39,849 nucleotides of DNA from an uncultured Eubacteriales bacterium (lineage in GTDB: Bacteria > Bacillota > Clostridia > Oscillospirales > Oscillospiraceae): the NCBI GenBank assembly GCA_900319275.1, contig ONNS01000037.1:1-39849 (forward strand). Direction: 5' to 3'. The notes under the pieces are model-generated. The model had not been told where the DNA came from. It did no database searches and saw only the letters and a list, made by a program, of their open reading frames with translations. Below are positions 25,950-36,611 of the stretch, piece by piece; within the stretch, counting starts at the first letter, position 1, and each line of letters begins with the position of its first letter. The translations under genes and the position numbers were made by a program.

Positions 25950-25978
25950 TTGCTTTTTCAGCGGCGTGCTGTTATAAT
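25950..25978 (+). promoter_or_regulatory. Promoter-like sequence leading into cloverleaf array 1
   Basis: TTGCTT (25950-25955), 17 nt, TATAAT (25973-25978). The start would fall near 25985, at the first base of the array. The -10 box also forms part of the array's outer inverted end ATAATGA. Confidence 0.55.
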
Positions 25979-26177
25979 GATCATCGGATGGCGAAATCAA
26001 TCGAAGATTCGATTGATTTCGCTGCCAAACGACACGTTTGGCAGCGAATGATTCAAGGAATCATTCGCCCAATGCTCATTGCAATGAATAAACGGCAAAA
26101 CAGCTGTGCTGTTTTGCTGCGCCACAAAGTGGCGCGGCGAAAAGCTTTTTGGCTTTTCGCCATCTTTTATTCATTAT
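25974..26177. repeat. Cloverleaf array 1: two units of three hairpins each
   Basis: The ends are ATAATGA and TCATTAT. Unit 1 holds three abutting hairpins: 14-bp (25991-26022, loop AGAT), 11-bp (26021-26045, loop ACA) and 11-bp (26044-26068, loop AAG). Unit 2 is closed by AATGAATAAA (26083-26092) and TTTATTCATT (26166-26175), and holds CAAAACAGC-TGT-GCTGTTTTG (26096-26116), GCGCCAC-AAA-GTGGCGC (26119-26135) and GCGAAAAGC to GCTTTTCGC (26137-26160). It fills the gap between the ABC operon and the zinc-ribbon gene. No ORF is credible here. Confidence 0.8.
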
Positions 26178-26280
26178 GATATATACAGACGATACATGCA
26201 TAAAACACGCCGTGGGCCTCGAGACAAGTTTATCGGGGCGTGATGGCATCCAATCAATGATCTGACAAGGAGAGAGGACA

Positions 26281-26895
26281 ATGAGTGTTACCTTTTGCCC
26301 GCGCTGCGGCGCGAAAAACGATGGAGAAAGCAGGTATTGTGCCGAATGCGGGACACCGCTGAACAATCTGCGGTCAAGTGACGCCTGGCCGGAGAGCGGC
26401 ACGGCACAGACGCCTGTCAATCCGACCGGCGCGGCGCCGGCAACGAATCGGAAAGTGAAGAAATCGGGAACCGGCGCAGCCTTTCTCGCTTTGGCGGGGC
26501 GGTATCTGTTCGGCTTCCTGCTCGTGGCGCTGCTGGCGTTTCTGATGAACGTGTTTCATCAGCATTCCGATTTTCTGACCAGGGGAGAGAGCATCGATAT
26601 GACGGAGCAAGTCGATTTCGGAAGCGGCGCTCCGGTCGGTGAATTCGTCCGTGTGGAGGCGCAGTTTGTTCTGGATGCATTTGCGACGGAAACGAACACG
26701 ATGAACGGCATCAACTCCAGCGAGGATTCCTATTATTTCGTGATCCTCAACAGCGGAGACGCCATCGCGGTGAAGGCGGCCTCGGTCAACGACCGGGCTG
26801 TCCTCGACAAGGGGCAGGAGGATACCTTTGATTACCTCGACGAGAAACTGGATTTTTTGACGATATCCCGCTGGAGGGCAAGCTTGTCCGTCTGA
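26281..26895 (+). CDS. Zinc-ribbon membrane protein, interrupted by a frameshift
   Basis: A 204-codon frame. The N-terminal zinc ribbon is CPRCGAKN and CAECGTPL (two CxxC pairs, residues 6-27). A low-complexity linker and a basic patch lead to one membrane helix (~65-88). The outer segment (~90-190) is of unknown fold. ATG 26281 follows AGGAGAGAGG. At the T6 run 26853-26858 the natural reading passes to the -1 frame: from GAC 26859 that frame runs to 27113 with a coherent end, while frame 0 soon stops at 26895. T TTT TTG (26853-26859) is a permissible -1 slippery heptamer. It may be a broken gene, a homopolymer read error or real frameshifting. Function unknown. Confidence 0.7.
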   Translation: MSVTFCPRCGAKNDGESRYCAECGTPLNNLRSSDAWPESGTAQTPVNPTGAAPATNRKVKKSGTGAAFLALAGRYLFGFLLVALLAFLMNVFHQHSDFLTRGESIDMTEQVDFGSGAPVGEFVRVEAQFVLDAFATETNTMNGINSSEDSYYFVILNSGDAIAVKAASVNDRAVLDKGQEDTFDYLDEKLDFLTISRWRASLSV

Positions 26896-27113
26896 CAAAT
26901 ACCGAGCTGATCCGCTACTTTGACGATTATGTGACGGATCTGGGCCTCGATGACCCGGACAGCACGGTCCGCCCGCAGAAATTTGTGCTCGATATGACGG
27001 CCGCACGCACCGAGAACGTTCTGCTGTACATTATTCTTCCGGTCGGGCTCGCCGCGGCGGCGCTGGTCGTTGTGGCCGTTGTGCGCAAGCGCCGCGCGAA
27101 AAACAGCGTCTGA
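26859..27113 (+). pseudogene. Continuation of the zinc-ribbon membrane protein in the -1 frame
   Basis: 84 codons from GAC 26859: an acidic outer segment (DDIPLEGKLVRLTNTELIRY), then LGLDDPDSTVRPQKFVLDM, a second membrane helix (LLYIILPVGLAAAALVVVAVV) and a basic tail RKRRAKNSV. Joined to the upstream part it gives a ~277-residue protein with two membrane helices. On its own it lacks a ribosome site at its only ATG-like start (26931), so it is not a separate gene. Confidence 0.65.
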
Positions 27114-27130
27114 AACTCATACAAACGAAA

Positions 27131-27185
27131 CAGAAGACGGTTCCCTATTTCAGATCCTGAGATGGGGAACCGTCTTCTGCTTTGT
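27131..27185 (+). terminator. Terminator after the zinc-ribbon gene
   Basis: CAGAAGACGGTTCCC (27131-27145) pairs perfectly with 27165-27179; CTTTG follows. Confidence 0.8.
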
Positions 27186-27191
27186 TGCCTG

Positions 27192-27538
27192 ATAATGAGT
27201 ATCGGATGGCGAAATCAATCGACGATTCGATTGATTTCGCTGCCAAACGACACGTTTGGCAGCGAATGATTCAGGGAATCATTCGCCCGATGCGCATTGC
27301 AATGAATATACGGCAAAACAGCTGTGCTGTTTTGCCGTATATTCATTATGGTATAACTAAATCCCCGCGCGCATGAAATGCGCGCATGCGAAACGCTGTT
27401 TCGCATGAAAAACACAGAACGATCTGTGTTTTTCGGGGATACCGTTGCAACGTCGTCTCCAGCTGACGCATGTTGTGCGTCAGCTGCGGGCTACAGCCCG
27501 CTTACGTCCGCATTCTGCGGACGTGGAGACAAAGTTAT
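27192..27538. repeat. Cloverleaf array 2: four units, the largest copy
   Basis: Unit 1 (27201-27291): ATCGG/CCGAT closes three hairpins nearly identical to array 1 unit 1. Unit 2 (27301-27347): one perfect 22-bp hairpin, equal to array 1 unit 2 with its last two hairpins lost. Unit 3 (27361-27440): ATCCCC/GGGGAT closes GCGCGCAT-GAA-ATGCGCGC, ATGCGAAAC-GCT-GTTTCGCAT and AAAAACACAGA to TCTGTGTTTTT. Unit 4 (27455-27530): GTCTCC/GGAGAC closes CAGCTGACGCA to TGCGTCAGCTG, GCGGGC to GCCCGC, and ACGTCCGCA-TTC-TGCGGACGT. Units 3-4 recur inverted at 36321-36489. The right end (AGTTAT, 27533-27538) reaches the esterase stop codon. Confidence 0.8.
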
Positions 27539-28572
27539 TACTTGAAGAACACGCGCAGGCAGTTGTACAGATGCGGCAGCCAGCAGTTGTAGGCGTGCGT
27601 GCCGCCCTTGAATTCGACCCAGCAGTAGTTCTCGCCGTCGGTGAAGCGCTCGGGCATATCGGCGAGCACCTGAGAGGCCATGATCTGATGCTCATCGTGC
27701 GCCATATCGGCGCTGCCGCTGCCGTTGTACCAGAACTTGACGGGCAGCTCTTTGTATTCCTCGCTGTTGAGCGCCGCTTCCAGCTTTTCGGCCGGGGTCA
27801 GCGAGCCGGAGTATGAGCCGATGTAGGCGAGAATATCAAAGCAGTGGATGAACGCGGACTGCAGCGAGGTGGCCGAGCCCATCGAGAAGCCGGCAAAGGC
27901 ACGGTGCTCGCGGGTAGCCTGCAGGTTTTCAAGGCTCACGTCGCCGTGGGCGTAAGTATGGTAGGTTGTCTCGATGAGCGGGATCACGTCGTTGCGCAGC
28001 TCCTGCCAGAAGTACACGGGCCAGGCGCCGCTGGCGAACACATACTGCTCGCCCTCGCCCTCAAAGGAGTAGAACGTGGGGCAGACGATGATCGTGGGCT
28101 CGGCCTCGCCCTTGTCGAACATGCGGTCCAGCAGGGCCAGCGTGCCCTTGCCCATGCGCTCCTCACTGAGCCAGTAGGCCTCGTCCTCGCCGCCGCCGTG
28201 CATCAGATAGAGTACGTTATAGTCCTTCGAGGCATCATAGCCGTAGGGCAGATAGACGTAGAGCTGCTTTTCGACCATGATATCGGTGCCGGCTTCGGGC
28301 AGCAGCCCCTCCGGGACCTCGGGCAGGACGGTGTTGCCGTCGGCGCTCTCGCAGATCTCAAAGTTGCCGGCGGCGATGGCCTCGAGCGCGTAAGCATGGC
28401 AGGTGTAGCTGAGCACCTCGACCGTGCCATGGTTTTCAACAGCTTCGGTGTATTTGGGCTTCATCGGGATCTTCTTGATAAAACCGGCGTCGGTGTAGCA
28501 GTCGGCAAACGCGGCCGCGCCGAGACTCAGGCACAGCGCCAGAGCCAGGAGTAGAGAAACAAGCTTTTTCAT
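27538..28572 (-). CDS. Secreted esterase, esterase D/feruloyl esterase-like (paralog 1)
   Basis: A 344-residue secreted alpha/beta hydrolase. The signal peptide MKKLVSLLLALALCLSLGAAAFA is followed directly by the mature chain; there is no lipobox. The fold of the putative esterase family (PF00756, CE1-like) is shown by VYLPYGYDASKDYNVLYLMHGGGEDE, WQELRNDVIPLIETTY, the nucleophile elbow GFSMGS and the late His in GGTHAYNCWLPHLYN. ATG 28572 is used (TTG 28578 is possible). It is a close paralog of the next esterase and lies downstream of it on the same strand. It likely removes acetyl or feruloyl groups from hemicellulose. No SLH, CBM or anchor is seen. Confidence 0.88.
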   Translation of the reverse strand: MKKLVSLLLALALCLSLGAAAFADCYTDAGFIKKIPMKPKYTEAVENHGTVEVLSYTCHAYALEAIAAGNFEICESADGNTVLPEVPEGLLPEAGTDIMVEKQLYVYLPYGYDASKDYNVLYLMHGGGEDEAYWLSEERMGKGTLALLDRMFDKGEAEPTIIVCPTFYSFEGEGEQYVFASGAWPVYFWQELRNDVIPLIETTYHTYAHGDVSLENLQATREHRAFAGFSMGSATSLQSAFIHCFDILAYIGSYSGSLTPAEKLEAALNSEEYKELPVKFWYNGSGSADMAHDEHQIMASQVLADMPERFTDGENYCWVEFKGGTHAYNCWLPHLYNCLRVFFK

Positions 28573-28603
28573 CGTCAATTTCGTCCTTTCTTATCTTATA
28601 CTA

Positions 28604-28789
28604 TTCTTCAATTAAACGATTAAAAATCGTTTAATTGCCTGTGAGCCATTGTGCTCACAGGCAAAGGCGCATTGCGCCTTTGAAGAAGCCGTGCAATACC
28701 AATCTTCGGCAAAGCGCAGGCTTTGCCTGGCGCAGCCTTCGCTGCGCATAAAACGCTTCTTTGTAAGCGTTTTATTGAAGATTGGTATT
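28604..28789. repeat. Cloverleaf array 3: two units between the esterases
   Basis: Unit 1 (28604-28687): TTCTTCA/TGAAGAA closes CAATTAAACGAT to ATCGTTTAATTG, GCCTGTGAGC to GCTCACAGGC, and AAAGGCGC-ATT-GCGCCTTT. Unit 2 (28695-28789): a 13-bp closing stem AATACCAATCTTC/GAAGATTGGTATT holds GGCAAAGC-GCAG-GCTTTGCC, GCGCAGC-CTTC-GCTGCGC and an 11-bp ATAAAACGCTT stem. Primary sequence is unlike arrays 1, 2 and 4, but the plan is the same. The closing stem overlaps the stop codon of the upstream esterase (28788-28790). Confidence 0.8.
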
Positions 28790-29846
28790 ATTTCGTAAAG
28801 AATACAAGCAGCGAGTTGTACAGATCGGGCAGCCAGCAGTTGTAGGCGTGGGCGCCGCCCTTGAAGCTGATCCAGGCGAAGTTTTCGCCGTCGACAAAGC
28901 GGTCGGGCATCTCGGTGAGGCAGCGGTCGCGGAAGGCCTCGTGGTTTTCGAGCGAGAAGTCGGCGGTTCCGTTGCCGTTGTACCAGAACTTGACGTCGAG
29001 ATCCTTGTACTCGTCGGATTCGAGGGCGGCCTTGAAGGCGTCAAAGTCGCACCAGGCACCGGAGAAGGCGCCGAAGTAGGCAAACTGGTCGAGGCAGTGC
29101 ATCATCACCGAGTTGATGGTGGTCATGCTGCCGCGGCTCAGGCCGCAGAAGGCGCGGTGGTCGCGAGCATCCGCTTCGCCGCCGTAGGTGGAATAGGTGC
29201 TTTCTACGAGCGGGATAATGTCGTTGCGCAGCTCCTGCCAGAAGTACATCGGCCAGATGTTTGCGAGCATATCGCCGGTGTACCAGTCTGTGAAGAGTTC
29301 GGCCTTGTCCGCGGGGATGGAGTAGTAATTGGGCGTCACGAGAATGAAGGGCGCGCATTCACCCTTGTCGATCATACGGTCGAGGAGCTTGCGGGTGCTC
29401 GAACCGGTGGCGCAGTCGCCGATCCAATAGGTCTCGTCGCCCTCGGTGCCGTGCAGGGCGTAGACGACGTTGTACTTCTCGGCGGGGTCGTAGCCGTAGG
29501 GCAGATAGACCAGCAGCTCCTTTTCCATGACGAACTCGGTCTGATCGCCGCAGAGGGCATCCTTGTCGAGCGGCATGATGTCGGGGTTGTCGTCCTCGGC
29601 GGAGAGCACATCGCCCGCCGCGACGGCCTCGATGGCGTAGGCGTGGGTCGTGTAGCGCAGGGTCTCCACGGTGCCGTGGTGCTCGACGTCCTCGGTGTAC
29701 TTGGGCTTCATCGGCACCTTTTTAATAAAGGGCCATTCGTATTCCGGCGCGGTGTAGTCGGCGAAGGCGGCCGCACCGCCGAGCAGCAGCGCCGCGATCA
29801 GCAGCAGGGACAGGGCAGAGAACAGTTTTTTGTTCAACTTAGTCAT
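28788..29846 (-). CDS. Secreted esterase, esterase D/feruloyl esterase-like (paralog 2)
   Basis: A 352-residue paralog of the esterase at 27538-28572: same IKKxPMKPKYTE near the start of the mature chain, VYLPYGYDPAEKYNVVYALHG, FWQELRNDIIPLVESTYSTY, nucleophile in GLSRGS and late His in GGAHAYNCWLPDLYN. The signal peptide is NKKLFSALSLLLIAALLLGGAAAFA. ATG 29846 is listed, but TTG 29837 (M-NKKLF) sits 8 nt after GAAAGG and may be the true start. It is divergent from GH3, which suggests joint work on acylated plant polysaccharide. Confidence 0.88.
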   Translation of the reverse strand: MTKLNKKLFSALSLLLIAALLLGGAAAFADYTAPEYEWPFIKKVPMKPKYTEDVEHHGTVETLRYTTHAYAIEAVAAGDVLSAEDDNPDIMPLDKDALCGDQTEFVMEKELLVYLPYGYDPAEKYNVVYALHGTEGDETYWIGDCATGSSTRKLLDRMIDKGECAPFILVTPNYYSIPADKAELFTDWYTGDMLANIWPMYFWQELRNDIIPLVESTYSTYGGEADARDHRAFCGLSRGSMTTINSVMMHCLDQFAYFGAFSGAWCDFDAFKAALESDEYKDLDVKFWYNGNGTADFSLENHEAFRDRCLTEMPDRFVDGENFAWISFKGGAHAYNCWLPDLYNSLLVFFTK

Positions 29847-29884
29847 CCTTTCATTATTTTTTATGGCTGATGCTGGCCATACAA

Positions 29885-29926
29885 TAAAAAAGTTCCGGTC
29901 TTTCCGCAAGGGAATTGACCGGAACT
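29885..29926 (-). terminator. Terminator or attenuator in the leader of the esterase unit
   Basis: On the minus strand AGTTCCGGTC (29926-29917) pairs with GACCGGAACT (29900-29891), enclosing TTCC/GGGAA with a GCAA-type tip, and runs into T6 (29890-29885). It lies 40 nt upstream of the second esterase start, not after a gene, which fits an attenuator or the end of a small leader RNA. Confidence 0.7.
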
Positions 29927-30072
29927 GTCATTTTATTAACTTCTCCTGCGCGTGCGGCGCAGTTGCGGTCGCGAAAACGACAGTTGCGGGCAGATCGCTT
30001 GCAAAGGAGACCGGCAGACCGTATGCTGGGCGCAGCGAAAACGGAACTGCCAATAAAGGAGAGGATGCTTCC

Positions 30073-33000
30073 ATGAATAAGGAAAAGAAAGCCCGGAAGG
30101 GCGGCCGCGTGTTGCTCTCGATCGGCTGCGTGCTGCTGGTGCTGCTGCTGGCGGCCAACGTCGCCGCGAACTACTTCTCGCGTCTGCTGGACGTGTACGT
30201 CGGTCTCGGCGAGGCCACGATCACGACCAAGGAGGGCGCCGAGAACTGGGATACCGAATACTATACACTCGATTCCAAGACCGCCGAGGAGGCGGACAAG
30301 GTTGCCAAGGACGTGACGCGCCGCATTGCGGAAGAGGGCATCGTCCTGATGAAGAATGAAAACGGCGCGCTGCCGATGGCCGCGGGTGCGGTGAGCCTGA
30401 TGGGCCGCCGCAGCGTCGAGACCGTCTTTGGCGGCACCGGCTCGGGCGCCGGCGACGAGGGCCAGTGCACGACGCTGACCGACGCGCTGACGCAGGCCGG
30501 CTTCCGGGTCAACCCCACGCTGACCGAGCTCTATAAAAACAATCTCGATAAGGTCCCCGTGGCCAAAACCACGATGGACAAGGCCGCCGACATGACCTAC
30601 TACATCGGCGAGTTCCCCCAGAGCTGGTACACCGACGATGTCACCGCGAGCTATGCAAGCTACGGCGACGCGGCGATCCTCGTCTTTGGCCGTCAGGGCG
30701 GCGAGGGCATGGACTTCTGTACCGATCTCAAGGCTGCGCTCGACGCGGGCGTGACCGCCATGCAGACGAGCGTCGCCGAGACCGCGAACTACGAGCCAGG
30801 CCAGCACCAGCTGGAGCTGAGTCGGGAGGAGCGCGAGCTGCTCGCCCACGCCGAGGCGAACTTTGACAAGGTCATCGTCGTCATTAACAGCGCCAACGTC
30901 ATGGAGATCGGCGCACTGCGCGACGATCCGCAGGTCGACGCGATCCTCTGGATGGCTTATCCCGGCTCCCGCGGCACGGTCGCGCTCGCCAATATCCTCA
31001 AGGGCGACGTGAACCCCTCCGGCCACACGGTCGATACCTGGGTCGTGGATATGACCGCCGACCCGACTTTCCCGAACACCTCACCCGTACAGTACCTGAA
31101 CGTCTCCAAGTCGAACGCCCTGGGCGACAGCTATGTTGTCGAGTACGAGGAGGGCATCTACTTCGGCTATCGCTACTACGAGACCGTCTCGGCCGACGGC
31201 GGCAGCTTCACCGTCGAGGGTGAGAGCGGCAAGTCCTACGAGGACGCGGTCGCCTACCCCTTCGGCTACGGCCTGAGCTACACCACGTTCGAGCAGAGCA
31301 TCAAGAGCGCGAAGGCCGACAAGGGCAACATCGTCGTCACCGTCACCGTGAAGAACACCGGTGACGTGGCCGGCAAGGACGTGATCCAGCTCTATTTCCA
31401 CGCGCCCTACACGGTCGGCGGTGTGGAGAAATCCGACACCGTGCTCGCCGCCTTTGCCAAGACCGAGCTGCTGCAGCCCAGCAAGTCCGCCGACTACACG
31501 CTCTCCTTCCCGATCGAGAACATGGCCTCCTATGACTTTCTGACCGAGCGCTGCTATGTCCTCGACGAGGGTGACTACCGCATTACCGTCAACAAAAACG
31601 CACACGAGACCTATGGCGAGAACTGCGAGTATGTCTATACCGTCGCAAAGAAGGTCGTCTACGGCGAGAGCAATCCCCGCCAGAGCGAGATCGACGCCCA
31701 GAAGGGCGAGACGCGCAACCTCTCTGCCGAAGCCAGGGATGCGCTGACCGTACAGGCCGCCGTGAACCGCTTTGACGATCTCAACGCCCAGTTCGTGCCC
31801 TATACCGAGGCCGCGGGCGGCAAGAGCACGCTCTTCACCCGCGAGAATTTCGCCGCCTCCTTCCCGACCGCGCCGACAGCGGAGGACCTCACGGCCTCCG
31901 ACGCCACGATCGCGAGACTCGGCGCCTATACCCCGGATTACTATGTCGCCGACGAACAGGCGCCCACGACCGGCGCCGATCCGGTCTGGACGGCAGTCGC
32001 CCTGCGCGGCGCGGCCTACGACGATCCGCGCTGGGATATGCTGCTCGACCAGATGGGCCCGAAATCCATGAGCAAGCTGATCTATGCCGGCAACCAGGGC
32101 ACGCCTGCCGTCAAGGCGGTCGACCTGCCCGCCTCCGGCGCCACCGACGGCCCTGCCGGGCTCAAGCAGTACGGCGGTCTGGGCTTTGGCACCAGCGGCA
32201 ACTTCAACTGCTCGGCCACGTTGACGGCGGCCACCTGGAACGTGGAGCTCGCCGAGGAATTTGGCCGCAGTGTCGGCAACGAGGCGCTGCTCGCCAACAT
32301 GAACGGCTGGTATGCCCCCGGCTGCGATATCCACCGCTCGCCCTTCGGCGGCCGCGGCTTTGAATACTACTCCGAGGATCCGCTGATCAGCGGCCGGATG
32401 TGCGCCGCCACGGTCAAGGGCGCGGCCGACCTCGGCCTGACCTGCTATGCCAAGCACTTTGTCCTCAACGATATGGACCGCTACCGTATTTCGAACGGCT
32501 TTGTCGTCTGGTGCAACGAGCAGGCCCTGCGCGAGATCTATGCGCGTGCCTACGAGATCCTTGTCAAGGAGCCCACCACGACGCTCAAGTACCTCGATAA
32601 CGGCGAGACCGTCTACAAGGAGACGCGCGCCTGCACGGCGCTGATGAGCTCCTTCAACCGCATCGGCGACAAGTGGTGCGGTGCATCCTCCGCCCTGCTC
32701 AAGGACATGCTGCGCGGCGAATGGGGCTTCCTCGGCACCGTCATCACCGACTATAACGGCAACGCCTATATGCACGTCGAGGCCGGCGTCTCCAGCGGCA
32801 ACGATCTGATGCTCGCAAACGAGACCACGCTGCCCACCAAGTTTGCCGACACCAAGAATCCCAGCACCATCCGCGTCATGCGGGAAGCCTGCAAGAACAT
32901 CTTCTATACGCAGGTCAACTCCTCGACGGTCAATAAGACCTCGGACGCTACGGTCATCACCTATGCCACCGCGCCTTGGCGCATCTGGCTGATGGAGGGC

Positions 33001-33090
33001 AACATCGGCGTGGGCGTCGTCGCCCTGGCGCTGATCGCCGCCGGCCTCATCGCCGGAAGACGGAAAAAGAATATCGAAGTCGTCGAATAA
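30073..33090 (+). CDS. Glycoside hydrolase family 3, domain-swapped, membrane-anchored at both ends
   Basis: A 1005-residue protein. One helix (~15-35) anchors the N-terminus. The GH3 C-terminal sandwich comes first (~60-410; RRIAEEGIVLMKNENGALPM, GRQGGEGMDF, MAYPGSRGTVALANIL), then a fibronectin III-like domain (~420-520; YPFGYGLSYTTFE, VTVTVKNTGDVAGKDVIQLY). The GH3 barrel follows (~640-960; PAGLKQYGG, GRGFEYYSEDPLISGRM, K794-H795 in YAKHF, nucleophile D893 in VITDYNGN). A last helix (~972-992) ends RRKKN. This reversed order is known in ruminal/gut clostridial beta-glucosidases. ATG 30073 follows AAAGGAGAGG; longer upstream starts are rejected. It likely acts outside the cell on oligosaccharides released by the esterases' neighbourhood. 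Confidence 0.92.
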   Translation: MNKEKKARKGGRVLLSIGCVLLVLLLAANVAANYFSRLLDVYVGLGEATITTKEGAENWDTEYYTLDSKTAEEADKVAKDVTRRIAEEGIVLMKNENGALPMAAGAVSLMGRRSVETVFGGTGSGAGDEGQCTTLTDALTQAGFRVNPTLTELYKNNLDKVPVAKTTMDKAADMTYYIGEFPQSWYTDDVTASYASYGDAAILVFGRQGGEGMDFCTDLKAALDAGVTAMQTSVAETANYEPGQHQLELSREERELLAHAEANFDKVIVVINSANVMEIGALRDDPQVDAILWMAYPGSRGTVALANILKGDVNPSGHTVDTWVVDMTADPTFPNTSPVQYLNVSKSNALGDSYVVEYEEGIYFGYRYYETVSADGGSFTVEGESGKSYEDAVAYPFGYGLSYTTFEQSIKSAKADKGNIVVTVTVKNTGDVAGKDVIQLYFHAPYTVGGVEKSDTVLAAFAKTELLQPSKSADYTLSFPIENMASYDFLTERCYVLDEGDYRITVNKNAHETYGENCEYVYTVAKKVVYGESNPRQSEIDAQKGETRNLSAEARDALTVQAAVNRFDDLNAQFVPYTEAAGGKSTLFTRENFAASFPTAPTAEDLTASDATIARLGAYTPDYYVADEQAPTTGADPVWTAVALRGAAYDDPRWDMLLDQMGPKSMSKLIYAGNQGTPAVKAVDLPASGATDGPAGLKQYGGLGFGTSGNFNCSATLTAATWNVELAEEFGRSVGNEALLANMNGWYAPGCDIHRSPFGGRGFEYYSEDPLISGRMCAATVKGAADLGLTCYAKHFVLNDMDRYRISNGFVVWCNEQALREIYARAYEILVKEPTTTLKYLDNGETVYKETRACTALMSSFNRIGDKWCGASSALLKDMLRGEWGFLGTVITDYNGNAYMHVEAGVSSGNDLMLANETTLPTKFADTKNPSTIRVMREACKNIFYTQVNSSTVNKTSDATVITYATAPWRIWLMEGNIGVGVVALALIAAGLIAGRRKKNIEVVE

Positions 33091-33094
33091 CTCC

Positions 33095-33160
33095 CTCAGT
33101 CACGGCGCTTGCGTGAAACGCGCCGCGACAGCTCCCCCCCCAGAGGAGGAGCCAAAACCA
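33095..33160. repeat. Short copy of the GGGGAGCTGTC-type palindromic repeat
   Basis: CTCCCTCAGTCACGGC and GACAGCTCCCCCCC resemble, inverted, the left part of the element at 2046-2445 (GGGGAAGCTGTC, GATGACTGATGAGG). It lies between GH3 and the small secreted protein. Confidence 0.4.
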
Positions 33161-33248
33161 TGTACGTCCCGGCGGGGGCGACACTGGAACGCCTCTGCCG
33201 GTTCTGCAAAAAATAACATACTCAAATGATTATTGGGAGGAAAATACA

Positions 33249-33683
33249 ATGAAAAAAGCGCTGTCTCTGCTCATCGCCCTGGTCCTGGTCCTGTCCGCCA
33301 TCGGCACCACTGCTTTCGCCGACAACACCTATGTCGGCAACACCGTCTACTGCGAAGCCGGTTATGAGAACGACGTTTACAACGGCGTCGCGAAGGTCCT
33401 CACCCTCAAGGACGACGGCACCTTCCTGCTGGTCGACAACACCTCCATTATCCACAACTCCTATGTTGTCGTCACCAACTGGTTCTATTTTGTCACCGGC
33501 ACCTATGAGGTCGTCAGCGAAGACGAGGGCACCCTTGAGGTCGTTCTGACCGGCACGGATGTCACCTATGTCATGAACGGCTCCGTCACCACCTCCGAAG
33601 AGGATCCCGAGCTGCTCGAGGACTATGCCGAGCTGACCGTCGAGTGCGACAACGAGGCCTTCTCCGTGGTCGTCAACGAGTAA
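33249..33683 (+). CDS. Small secreted beta-rich protein of unknown function
   Basis: A 144-residue protein with signal peptide MKKALSLLIALVLVLSAIGTTAFA and a mature, acidic, beta-rich chain (VAKVLTLKDDGTFLLVDNT, FVTGTYEVVSEDEGTLEVVLTG). The DDGTF and GTYEV spacing resembles the repeat units of the protein at 1-2024, so both may share a lipocalin-like fold; this is inference. No Cys pair beyond two Cys, and no catalytic motif. ATG 33249 has GGGAGG upstream. It is monocistronic, with its own terminator. Confidence 0.8.
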   Translation: MKKALSLLIALVLVLSAIGTTAFADNTYVGNTVYCEAGYENDVYNGVAKVLTLKDDGTFLLVDNTSIIHNSYVVVTNWFYFVTGTYEVVSEDEGTLEVVLTGTDVTYVMNGSVTTSEEDPELLEDYAELTVECDNEAFSVVVNE

Positions 33684-33702
33684 TCTGCTTTTCAGCCAAT
33701 CA

Positions 33703-33735
33703 GCCGGAGCTCTCCGCCAGTGGGAGAGCTCCGGC
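33703..33735 (+). terminator. Terminator after the small secreted protein
   Basis: GCCGGAGCTCTCC (33703-33715) pairs with GGAGAGCTCCGGC (33723-33735); AACCTTGTATTTTCTT follows. Confidence 0.8.
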
Positions 33736-33739
33736 AACC

Positions 33740-33768
33740 TTGTATTTTCTTCTCTTTTCCGCTACAAT
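33740..33768 (+). promoter_or_regulatory. Promoter of the two-component pair
   Basis: TTGTAT (33740-33745), 17 nt, TACAAT (33763-33768). An alternative -10 TATAAT overlaps slightly downstream. Confidence 0.6.
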
Positions 33769-33790
33769 ATAATTAAGAAGGTGAACGACC

Positions 33791-34519
33791 ATGCTTCGTG
33801 CGGCAATCGTCGAGGATAACGACCGGGACGCGGAATCCCTTCAGTCCCATCTTAAACGCTATGCCCGGGAAAACAAGCTGGAGATCGAAACACGGCGCTA
33901 TGACAACGGCATCCTGTTTTTGGAGCAGTACCGCAGCGAATACGACCTTGTCTTTATGGACATCGACATGCCAGCCATGAACGGCATGCATGTTGCCAAG
34001 GCCCTGCGCGAGCGGGATACCCATGTGCTGCTGATCTTTGTTACAGCGCTGGCCCGCTTTGCTGTCAACGGCTACGAGGTCGACGCCTTTGACTTTATCG
34101 TCAAGCCCCTGCAGTATAATTTCTTTTCGGCCAAGATGAACCGCGCGGTGAGAAAGCTCGCCTCCGAGCCGCGGCAGAAAATGCTGATCCGTTCGGCGGA
34201 GAAGACCGTGAGCGTCTTTTTCGACGAAATATACTATGTGGATATTTTCAACCACGTCCTGAGCTTTCATCTGGCCGACGAGACGGTCTCGACCCGCGGC
34301 ACGATGAAGGATGTGCTGGAGAGTCTCAACGACGGCAGCTTTGCCATGTGCAACAAGTCCTTTGTAGTCAATCTCAACCATGTGCAGCGGATCGACGCCG
34401 ACGAGGTCGTGCTCACGAACGGCGATCGGCTGCCCATCAGCCGCCTGCGGAAGAAGGAATTCATGCAGCAGATCGCCGATTTCTACGGCAATAAGAAGAT
34501 CAACCTCGGGAGGTTCTGA
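33791..34519 (+). CDS. LytTR-family response regulator
   Basis: A 242-residue regulator. The receiver domain (1-120) has acidic pocket E8-D9, phospho-acceptor D57 (VFMDIDMP), T86 (FVTALA) and K105 (FIVKPL). The LytTR DNA-binding domain (~140-235) has LIRSAEKTVSVFFDEIYYVDIFNHVLSF and MCNKSFVVNLNHVQRID. ATG 33791 follows AAGGTG. It is paired with the GHKL kinase that starts 1 nt after its stop. Such pairs often answer extracellular peptides; no peptide-precursor or processing gene lies nearby. Confidence 0.93.
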   Translation: MLRAAIVEDNDRDAESLQSHLKRYARENKLEIETRRYDNGILFLEQYRSEYDLVFMDIDMPAMNGMHVAKALRERDTHVLLIFVTALARFAVNGYEVDAFDFIVKPLQYNFFSAKMNRAVRKLASEPRQKMLIRSAEKTVSVFFDEIYYVDIFNHVLSFHLADETVSTRGTMKDVLESLNDGSFAMCNKSFVVNLNHVQRIDADEVVLTNGDRLPISRLRKKEFMQQIADFYGNKKINLGRF

Positions 34520-34520
34520 T

Positions 34521-35828
34521 ATGGCCCTGTTCATCAATCCCTTCCTGGTGCTCAAGCTTAATTTCATGCTGCGCTATCTATCGGGTATGCTGCTCTTCAG
34601 CTGGAAGCTGCCAAAGCGCGAGCACTATGGGCTGCGCGTGCTCAGCTGCTCGGCGCTGTGCTTTCTGCTCGCGTTTTTGCTGCCCATTCTGACCGAGAAC
34701 TTTTATTATATTGTGTTCCTCTTTCTCGTCGAGGCCCTGATCGCGATGTGCGCGATCCGCTTCTGCTGTAAGGCCGCATGGACAGAGACTTTTTATCTGG
34801 CCGCGGCGGTTTTCTCGGCCGAGCATATTGCGAGTATGCTCGATAACCTGATCTCTCTCCTGCGCCCGGATCTGCTGGCCTATTACATCACAACGAAGAT
34901 GAATGTGCCGGTGGCGCTCAACTGGTTTGTCTGTTTGCTGCTGAGTTATGGGCTTATCTACCTGCTCATGTTCCGGCATAACCGTCTGACCGAGGCGCAT
35001 ACGCTGGACTTCCACGCCATGCTGCTGCTGCTTGTCGTTTCCTTGCTGATCAATCTATATATGAATCTGGTCTATTCCAAGCTCGTGACCATGGATTCCG
35101 TATGGATGGAAGTATTCAAGAGCCTGTTCAATATACTCTGCTCTGTCTTTCTGCTGCTGGTGCAGCACAGTATGCTGCGGCAAAACCAGGCCGAAGGGCG
35201 GCTGCAGATGGTGTCGATGCTGTGGGAGCAGGCACGCGAGCAGTACCGCATCAGCAAGGAGAACATCGAGGCCATCAACATCAAGTGCCACGATCTCAAG
35301 CACCAGCTGCTGGCCATCCGGGACAAGACCGACGAGCGGGAATACGCGCGCATGATGGAGCTCGTGGACAGCTACGGCTCGCAGATCGAGACCGGCAGCG
35401 AGGTGCTGGACGTCGTATTTCAGGAGAAAAACTTCCAGTGCCGCAAGCTCGGCATCCAGTTTACCTGCATCATCGACGGCGCGGCGCTGAACTTCATGGA
35501 CACGATCGACCTCTATGTGCTCTTCGGCAATCTGATCGACAACTGCATCGAGGCCGTATCCGCCCTGCCCGAGACCGAGGTCAAAAATGTTCAGGTGACA
35601 GTGCGGCGCGAGCGGGGTTTTGTCATCGTCACAACCGAAAACGGCTATGCGGGCGAGCTGCAGTGGGCGGACGGGCGCCTGCGCACCTCGAAGGGCGACG
35701 AGCAGAACCACGGCTTCGGCCTGCTGAGCATCGAGAAGATCATCCACAAATACGGCGGCCGCTATTCCATTCAAACCGACGAGCAGATCTTTACGATGAA
35801 CATCGTCTTCCCGGTCAATGATCAGTAG
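34521..35828 (+). CDS. GHKL-type sensor histidine kinase (AgrC/ComD-like)
   Basis: A 435-residue kinase with about six membrane helices in residues 1-215. The phospho-acceptor His is H257 in IKCHDLKHQL; the GHKL ATPase follows, with NLIDNCIEA (N-box) and HGFGLLSIEKI (G-box). A short linker coiled coil lies at ~218-255. ATG 34521 has GGGAGG ~9 nt upstream inside the previous gene; longer in-frame starts there are rejected. It partners with the LytTR regulator. The ligand is unknown. Confidence 0.92.
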   Translation: MALFINPFLVLKLNFMLRYLSGMLLFSWKLPKREHYGLRVLSCSALCFLLAFLLPILTENFYYIVFLFLVEALIAMCAIRFCCKAAWTETFYLAAAVFSAEHIASMLDNLISLLRPDLLAYYITTKMNVPVALNWFVCLLLSYGLIYLLMFRHNRLTEAHTLDFHAMLLLLVVSLLINLYMNLVYSKLVTMDSVWMEVFKSLFNILCSVFLLLVQHSMLRQNQAEGRLQMVSMLWEQAREQYRISKENIEAINIKCHDLKHQLLAIRDKTDEREYARMMELVDSYGSQIETGSEVLDVVFQEKNFQCRKLGIQFTCIIDGAALNFMDTIDLYVLFGNLIDNCIEAVSALPETEVKNVQVTVRRERGFVIVTTENGYAGELQWADGRLRTSKGDEQNHGFGLLSIEKIIHKYGGRYSIQTDEQIFTMNIVFPVNDQ

Positions 35829-35852
35829 AGGCGCCCCTCTGCGGTCGCCCAC

Positions 35853-35903
35853 AAAAAATGTGAGGGAATTCGCCATTGGCAGGCGAGTTCTCTCACATTT
35901 TTA
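35853..35903 (+). terminator. Terminator after the histidine kinase
   Basis: AAAAATGTGAG...GAATTCGCC pairs with GGCGAGTTC...CTCACATTTTT; a T run ends the 3' arm. Confidence 0.85.
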
Positions 35904-35911
35904 ATGATTTT

Positions 35912-36103
35912 CGTAGGGAGCGAGGCCGCCTTGCCGCGAATGCCTTTCCCGGGCCTGCTTGTGCGACGGCCCGCCAAAGGCGCGGCTACGGAAACGGAAT
36001 CTTCCCTTCCTCTGCCACCGGCAGCGGGAAGGTTCCGTTTCCCCAGATCGCTCCGTAGATTACCGCGCAGGTCTGCGGAGGCATCTGGGGATGCCTCCCT
36101 ACG
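35912..36103. mobile_element. MITE-like repeat, family CGTAGGGAGG (copy 2)
   Basis: A 192-bp element with ends CGTAGGGAG and CCTCCCTACG. The left half is nearly identical to 6685-6780; the right half differs and is ~40 bp longer. Confidence 0.75.
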
Positions 36104-36173
36104 CGGCTGCCTGGCAGCCCTTTCTCGTTGCGCTCGGGGCGAGCCAAGCCCTCTCAGGCGCTGCGCGCAAATA

Positions 36174-36581
36174 GGGCGTGTTGCAAAATGCAGGAAACCG
36201 AGTAAAAGAAGGGCTCATACGTAGGGGAGGGGCTTGCCCCTCCCGCGCACGCAAATGTACTAATTTGCGAATAATGTTCGGCGAAACCGCAAAATGCTGC
36301 GATTGCGCCGTTTATTGCCTATAACTTTGTCTCCACGTCCGCCGTTGGCGGACGTAAGCGGGCAATAGCCCGCAGCTGACGCACAACGCGCGTCAGCTGG
36401 AGACCCCAAAAAACACAGATTATTCTGTGTTTTTCATGCGAAACAGCGTTTCGCATGCGCGCATTTCATGCGCGCGGGGATTTAGTTATAAATAATAACA
36501 AGGTACCGCCGGGAGGGGCAAGCCCCTCCCCTACGGCAGAACCGTCATTTGTGCAGCTAAACCGTATTTTGCAACAGGCCC
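36174..36581. mobile_element. Nested MITE-like repeat that contains cloverleaf array 4
   Basis: Outer arms GGGCGTGTTGCAAAAT (36174-36189) and inverse (36566-36581, one mismatch) enclose perfect 26-bp inner arms that begin CGTAGGGGAGGGGC (36220-36245 and 36510-36535). Array 4 (36321-36489) lies inside. The two-layer end plan matches 10780-10986. The whole stretch 35904-36587 between the kinase and rpoD is made of such repeats and contains no credible gene. Confidence 0.75.
36321..36489. repeat. Cloverleaf array 4: inverted copy of array 2 units 3-4
   Basis: The ends are ATAACT and AGTTAT. GTCTCC/GGAGAC (36329-36404) closes ACGTCCGCC-GTT-GGCGGACGT, GCGGGC to GCCCGC, and AGCTGACGC to GCGTCAGCT. 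Then CCCC/GGGG closes AACACAGA to TCTGTGTT, ATGCGAAAC-AGC-GTTTCGCAT and GCGCGCAT-TTC-ATGCGCGC. Compared with array 2, the pair closing the first hairpin loop changes A-T to C-G on both sides, and loops differ, while stems are kept. Confidence 0.8.
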
Positions 36582-36587
36582 AAATAT

Positions 36588-36611
36588 GCCCCGGCGCTTG
36601 TGCGCCGGGGC
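36588..36611 (-). terminator. Hairpin after rpoD
   Basis: GCCCCGGCGC-TTGT-GCGCCGGGGC, just after the rpoD stop. The following T content on the minus strand is weak. Confidence 0.6.

Follow-up and report, generated by a model that had tools for sequence, protein, structure and literature searches.

Paired cloverleaf palindromes, a probable non-autonomous mobile DNA of rumen Ruminococcaceae

We analysed a 39,849-nt contig (the window, taken at its full length) from an uncultured Eubacteriales bacterium, whose genome we place in the rumen Ruminococcaceae, and describe here the palindromic cloverleaf elements that it carries. Four loci, which an earlier note on this DNA had described as built almost wholly of perfect hairpins, were confirmed as such by reading and folding. 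They are occupied by five elements from three sequence families (A, C and D), all of them intergenic (Table 1). These families and a fourth, E, found outside the window, follow a common plan, AT-[cloverleaf]-GC-[cloverleaf]-AT, which spans 158-215 bp and into which a transposase gene would not fit. Each unit has its own closing stem, which reaches the unit ends and encloses three hairpins, exactly the unit plan that had been proposed. The units do not stand in the tandem arrays first described; they come paired, two per element around a fixed centre. Our count is nine full units instead of eight, and the single shortened unit, the second of element B, stands.

Elements A and B belong to one family, C and C' to another, and D to a third. 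In B the second unit is reduced to a single hairpin with its feet retained, and in C' the linker between the two units is deleted. The esterase gene that ends at element C has its stop codon at 27538-27540 on the reverse strand, and the last T of the element serves as the first base of this codon. Element D occupies the whole gap between two esterase-like genes that lie on the same strand. The closing stems end in AATGA...TCATT in both units of family A and in AAC...GTT in both units of family C; in family D they end in AC...GT and then AATACC...GGTATT, and in family E in AATTTATTCCC...GGGAATAAATT and then ATT...AAT. Terminal inverted repeats are present (ATAATGA/TCATTAT and ATAACT/AGTTAT), weaker in D and E. 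Families C and E have their closing stems and feet in common (CCCC/GGGG and GTCTCC/GGAGAC), with different hairpin arms.

Table 1. Paired cloverleaf elements of the window and the repeat that hosts one of them.
Feature	Coordinates	Strand	Parts	Basis or remark
Element A (full)	25974..26177	+	AT 25974-25975; unit 1 25976-26080; GC 26081-26082; unit 2 26083-26175; AT 26176-26177	Sequence, folds, covariation in 42 distinct copies
Element B (family A)	27192..27349	+	AT 27192-27193; unit 1 27194-27298; GC 27299-27300; short unit 2 27301-27347; AT 27348-27349	Sequence, fold, model match 138.4 bits
Element C (full)	27353..27538	+	AT 27353-27354; unit 1 27355-27446; GC 27447-27448; unit 2 27449-27536; AT 27537-27538	Sequence, fold, 16-copy alignment
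Element D (full)	28598..28791	+	AT 28598-28599; unit 1 28600-28692; GC 28693-28694; unit 2 28695-28789; AT 28790-28791	Sequence, folds, second copy at 91% in locus L042
Element C' (family C, reversed)	36321..36489	-	AT 36321-36322 and 36488-36489; inserted in F repeat	Sequence, fold, empty-site comparison
Part of F repeat hosting C'	36498..36526	-	GTAG-type palindrome GGGGCTTGCCCC...	Empty F copies as unfilled target sites

The folds were compared with 200 dinucleotide shuffles per element over five folds. Elements A, B, C, D and C' gave z-scores of -12.3, -13.8, -10.3, -13.5 and -12.1, respectively, and 0 of 200 shuffles was as good in each fold; with DNA folding parameters, applied to two elements (A and D), the z-scores were -14.0 and -12.4. 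Shuffled sequences fold far worse than the real ones, and the initial observation survives this comparison. No Rfam family reached its gathering score anywhere in the window, and ARAGORN called neither a tRNA nor a transfer-messenger RNA there.

Copies of family A show conserved pairing. In an unfitted alignment of 21 copies, both sides had changed in 28 of 82 pairs. A larger alignment of 42 distinct copies was fitted to the model structure, so that its counts lean toward that structure; here 98.2% of 3432 cells were paired, and both sides had changed in 37 of the 82 pairs. None of 500 shuffles of this alignment was as high on any of five measures, and slid versions were 31-53% paired. Divergence reached 24.9% in loops versus 4.9% in paired columns. 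As far as the aligned copies tell, the fold is kept more than the sequence in family A. Copies from other species retain the pairing with compensatory changes, and in this respect too the earlier observation holds.

The pattern of departures from pairing bears on the molecule in which the fold acts. RNA helices usually change via G-U intermediates, and selection on a one-strand RNA would tolerate G.U and not A.C. When we counted only columns whose commonest pair is Watson-Crick, family A had 39 G.T versus 28 A.C cells (p 0.22) and 20 versus 18 types (p 0.87). A raw excess of G.T, present without this restriction, traced largely to a handful of columns in which G.T is itself the commonest pair. 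Twenty-six of the 43 alternative Watson-Crick types were transversion-like. Since G.T and A.C are similar in number, the sequence comparison favours a fold conserved as DNA rather than as one-strand RNA. A structured RNA spread through the genome (a small RNA, terminator or mRNA-stability element), an option raised at the outset, would accord with the very stable RNA folds, with the intergenic position of all window elements and with the location of D between same-strand genes. We nevertheless regard it as improbable, given that G.T has no clear advantage over A.C, that Rfam has no match, and that the copies in the own genome show no orientation preference to genes. Of these 47 copies, judged from crude open reading frame (ORF) calls, 14 were codirectional (6 in the same and 8 in the opposite orientation), 11 convergent, 11 divergent and 11 unresolved.

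The elements are not the local group of loci that the earlier note had seen; instead, they are dispersed genome-wide. A 411-base query covering B and C gave 99 own-genome matches, many of which are reverse matches of the palindromic arms at the same places. Counted from fetched stretches only, and hence as lower bounds, the own genome (G000; G denotes genomes and L fetched loci) holds at least 17 places with A, 25 with C, 9 with E (one of them from extra sampling) and 2 with D. A strict cloverleaf detector (closing stem of at least 5 bp around three hairpins, spacing of at most 3 nt) was run on 510,499 fetched bases, where it detected 96 cloverleaves, and on one control with letters shuffled inside 60-base blocks, where it detected 0. 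All 96 belong to these four families (A 45, C 36, E 11, D 4). Across 1,598,651 fetched bases, a total that includes some overlap between loci, there were 146 distinct cloverleaves (A 89, C 36, E 12, D 4, others 5); the five others all lie inside elements of G046, a genome from another family of the order, and none lies outside the described elements. An extra 391,413 bases of the own genome, taken away from known copies, yielded a single cloverleaf, an E copy, and none occurred in 105,323 bases of G015 or 119,505 bases of G044. Several contigs of the own assembly (C28, C38, C41, C69 and C143) start inside A or C elements, which indicates that these repeats break the assembly and that copy numbers are underestimated.

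By a plain DNA search, 18 of 36 congeners have A or C types, as against none of 23 genomes from other genera. A covariance model built from the family A alignment, a search of relatives that had been suggested earlier, matched 39 of 109 genomes, namely G046 and 38 members of the genus, of which five matched weakly. The five weak matches (G004, G005, G027, G075 and G076; best E 7e-20 to 1e-3) look partial or doubtful and were not relied on. The model missed C, D and E both within the window and at five loci holding them, and so is not blind to sequence. Among the titles that full-text searches of the literature listed, none describes such elements, and any claim that they are unpublished extends no further than these searches. 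The dimers around a fixed centre, the AT target duplications at the ends and the dispersed mobile family of the genus are features that the earlier note had missed.

Evidence of movement comes from the congener G068. Two A subfamilies of four copies each occur there at unrelated sites, with 0 mismatches in 204 positions within a subfamily and with 40-base flanks that differ at 21-35 of 40 positions. Identical 204-nt copies at unrelated sites show recent movement. Another copy has the middle of subfamily 1 and a last 34 nt that are exactly those of subfamily 2, and by its sequence looks like a recombinant.

To define the target site, we used insertions into the F repeat. Element C' of the window and a C copy in L012 both lie inside F repeats, in opposite orientation, and the own genome also contains empty F copies. 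When the flanks were joined with one AT, their edit distance to the nearest empty F copy was 3 (window) and 1 (L012); seven alternative joints fitted worse, at 4-5 and 2-3. On this comparison a 2-bp target duplication, AT, fits best, by a small margin and from two paralogous empty sites; the observed duplication also fits AT better than TA. In the F copies L047, L083 and L086, C sits exactly where it does in the window; these are not independent cases. A search for orthologous empty sites, on the rpoD side and across the window, gave none, the orthologues being too diverged. The F repeat itself is about 290 bp long, with ends GGGCGYGTTGCAAAAT and two GTAG-type palindromes GTAGGGGAGGGGCTTGCCCC; it lies at window positions 36000-36320 and 36498-36590 and in L081-L098, has 21 pattern matches in the own genome and hosts several C insertions.

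The junctions are nearly invariant. Among the 42 distinct A copies, the left AT is A in 40 and T in 41, the right AT is A in 41 and T in 41, and the centre is G in 42 and C in 37; the base just outside AT is free, leaning to T. Elements can also be chained through a single shared AT, as C-AT-E (L010 and L021), E-AT-C (L020) and C-AT-C (L009). In L066 of the congener G021, at about 1333-1500, a roughly 170-bp insert with inverted ends of its own, AGTAAACG...CGTTTAC, interrupts an A element and is possibly another small mobile element.

Another view would take the palindromes for recombination or packaging signals (attC-like sites, or phage or plasmid origin signals) instead of transposed elements. 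Integron attC sites work as folded single strands with little sequence conservation, a likeness that speaks for this view. It is very hard to reconcile with identical copies at unrelated sites that have AT at both ends. Moreover, none of 72,556 plasmid and 50,697 phage records matched the elements, and three exact patterns searched in IMG/VR returned 0, 3 and 0 stretches, the three being without any cloverleaf. We consider it the least probable of the explanations weighed here.

The double-cloverleaf plan persists where the sequence does not. Element D shares no sequence with A or C and has the same plan, as had been noted for this locus (then called array 3). In G046, all 12 fetched elements start with ATAAT (12/12) and end with TCATTAT (12/12), around a centre CATT-NN-AAT in which NN is GC in seven, GA in two, TC in two and GT in one; blastn gave no match to A, C, D or E that reached 25 nt. 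The suggestion that the architecture and not the sequence is what is kept is supported by D, by the G046 elements and by the C/E pair.

Whole units are also exchanged between elements. In L261 of G046, the first 107 nt correspond at 99% to the right unit of the L265 type in inverted form, and the other half corresponds at about 84% to the right unit of L254, a type from the other G046 family; judged from these identities, entire cloverleaf units were cleanly swapped. Locus L025 of the own genome is a C-E chimera. Taken with the arms of the G046 elements, these two cases show that units and arms are interchangeable, while plan, feet, centre and AT stay. Deletion derivatives that keep their ends include B in the window, L034 and a mini-C in L040 and L041. 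The mini-C (L041 2070-2180; L040 about 2025-2075) is a perfect palindrome of 51 bp that has the C-type ends TATAACTTTGTCTCC...GGAGACAAAGTTATA and represents a minimal form with one hairpin.

Collectively, the elements are probably non-autonomous mobile DNA of a new architecture, moved in trans, with miniature inverted-repeat transposable elements (MITEs) as the nearest known kind. Each element is a dimer of cloverleaf (four-way-junction) units with a central dinucleotide, usually GC, and AT flanks, and would insert at an AT dinucleotide and leave AT at both sides. An enzyme supplied in trans may read the folded DNA, that is, the paired junctions together with the short unit ends and AT, since the plan is constant from family to family while the hairpin arms vary. 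The fold would then act as DNA, either single-stranded or cruciform, rather than as one-strand RNA. A recombinase with a fixed 2-bp crossover and a transposase with a 2-bp stagger would each be compatible with the strict AT at both ends and with the palindromic TT-AT-AA junction. Recognition of the folded form is what we infer from arm replacement and unit swaps in the sequences compared. More tentatively, and with well under even chances in our estimate, the elements may be shape-defined mobile DNA, in which the enzyme recognises paired four-way-junction units, arms are freely replaced, units are swapped as modules, and a dedicated recombinase operates in Oscillospirales-like gut bacteria. 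The earlier note had listed a four-way-junction DNA element moved in trans among its options; the DNA element is supported, while "in trans" stays an interpretation, no enzyme having been found.

The search for a mobiliser covered PF01797, IS30, DDE_3 (IS630) and IS110 and yielded none among these families; of the HUH enzymes it took in Y1 alone, and serine recombinases lay outside it. The own genome has neither IS30 nor DDE_3, which occur in 3 and 4 of 38 genus genomes, respectively, and PF01797 occurs in 22 of the 38. Transposase_20/IS110, with one gene in the own genome and presence in 9 of 38 genus genomes, was rejected as a candidate, as it has no visible link to the elements. No parent insertion sequence emerged, own-genome C-type ends pairing only at element length, and none of the G068 model matches listed is a cargo-bearing element. 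Genes beside elements were surveyed in 20 stretches of G046 and G068 (64 of 70 ORFs, six shorter ones dropped), and of 95 Pfam families the 25 shared most often include no transposase. The most widely shared families occur in two members, and among these 25 housekeeping genes predominate. In the window, the zinc-ribbon/DUF6709 gene at 26281-27113 has a frame that stops at 26895, with coding-like sequence continuing in another frame, a possible frameshift.

One candidate enzyme class did show an association. Elements akin to repetitive extragenic palindromic (REP) sequences or their hairpin-forming doublets (REPINs) could be moved by a REP-associated tyrosine transposase (RAYT; Y1, HUH) that recognises single-stranded hairpins, which would account for a fold at the DNA level. 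A divergent RAYT-type Y1 gene is present in 10 of 19 A-bearing genomes versus 2 of 18 without A (Fisher p 0.013). However, nine A-bearing genomes, several of them incomplete, show no such gene, and the correlation may stem from common ancestry within the genus. All 14 RAYT-like genes examined carry or adjoin GTAG-type REPs, and no cloverleaf lies around them in the fetched stretches, up to about 3 kb per side; this assigns the RAYT to the GTAG repeats and makes it an unlikely mobiliser of the cloverleaves. The RAYT-type genes of L120 and L122-L134 (G000 and congeners) hold their GTAG-type REP palindromes within their own reading frame. These in-frame REPs are typically two, inverted and about 186-190 nt apart, and in many genes read RGDPCGRP and RATARVAPT. 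The REP sequence varies from gene to gene, as if each RAYT had its own cognate repeat.

A conventional transposase acting on ordinary MITEs deserves more credit, although we still hold it to be doubtful. It would read the short terminal inverted repeats, and the hairpins would be passengers kept perfect by palindrome correction. Short terminal inverted repeats, a 2-bp duplication and deletion derivatives that keep their ends are all as expected of such elements. The unit ends of A, C, D and E differ while the double-cloverleaf plan is constant, no gene-bearing element with such ends was seen, and IS30 and DDE_3 are missing from the own genome, a negative that covers the families searched and no others; all three speak against ordinary MITEs.

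Several observations count against fold-defined mobile DNA moved in trans. Families A and G046 share the unit ends AATGA/TCATT, a point in favour of ordinary MITEs, and a sequence-reading transposase that ignores the arms may be compatible with these common ends. Correction of palindromes by arm-to-arm template switching could keep the stems perfect without selection. In family C, G.T exceeds A.C in cells (24 versus 13), though types are equal (11 versus 11). The empty sites are paralogous F copies, two of them independent, with a margin of one edit each, and the mobilising enzyme did not emerge among the families searched.

If movement in trans of folded DNA is correct, bacteria would carry mobile DNA in which the fold is conserved and not the sequence, and which sequence-based searches miss. 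The G046 elements are an example: blastn links them to none of A, C, D and E, and they came to light only through a model of structure and sequence. The system also offers a testable case for a junction-reading enzyme acting in trans, with recent movement in G068, arm swaps in G046 and minimal forms such as the 51-bp mini-C. Furthermore, the elements explain part of the assembly fragmentation, several contigs ending inside them.

Like a tRNA, each unit has a closing stem around three hairpins; unlike a tRNA, the elements have longer arms, two units, no tRNA call and conservation at the DNA level. IS30 and IS630/Tc1-type elements also make 2-bp target duplications, and IS30 inserts beside its own ends, which the C-AT-E and C-AT-C chains resemble. 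Their transposase genes are absent from the own genome, however, and Tc1-type elements use TA where those described here use AT. REPs, bacterial interspersed mosaic elements (BIMEs) and REPINs are likewise intergenic palindromes moved in trans, with hairpins kept as DNA structure; in contrast, the present elements have three hairpins in a closing stem, twice over, and an AT duplication, and the hairpin feet in A, C and D lack a GTAG tag; the GTAG REPs of this genus differ from them in sequence.

Yeast mitochondrial GC clusters have a 2-bp target duplication. Together with mitochondrial double-hairpin elements, they resemble the present elements as small mobile palindromes, the mobiliser of neither being known, but they have one or two hairpins and reside in organelle genomes. 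For the GC42 clusters, one study describes changes concentrated in loops (PMC4478555), as we see in family A. MITEs are alike in being short, gene-less and dispersed, with terminal inverted repeats, a target duplication and strong secondary structure. The elements described here differ from them in that no parent insertion sequence was found among the ends and transposase families searched, in having two full four-way junctions around a fixed centre, in keeping this plan despite unrelated arms, and in exchanging whole units.

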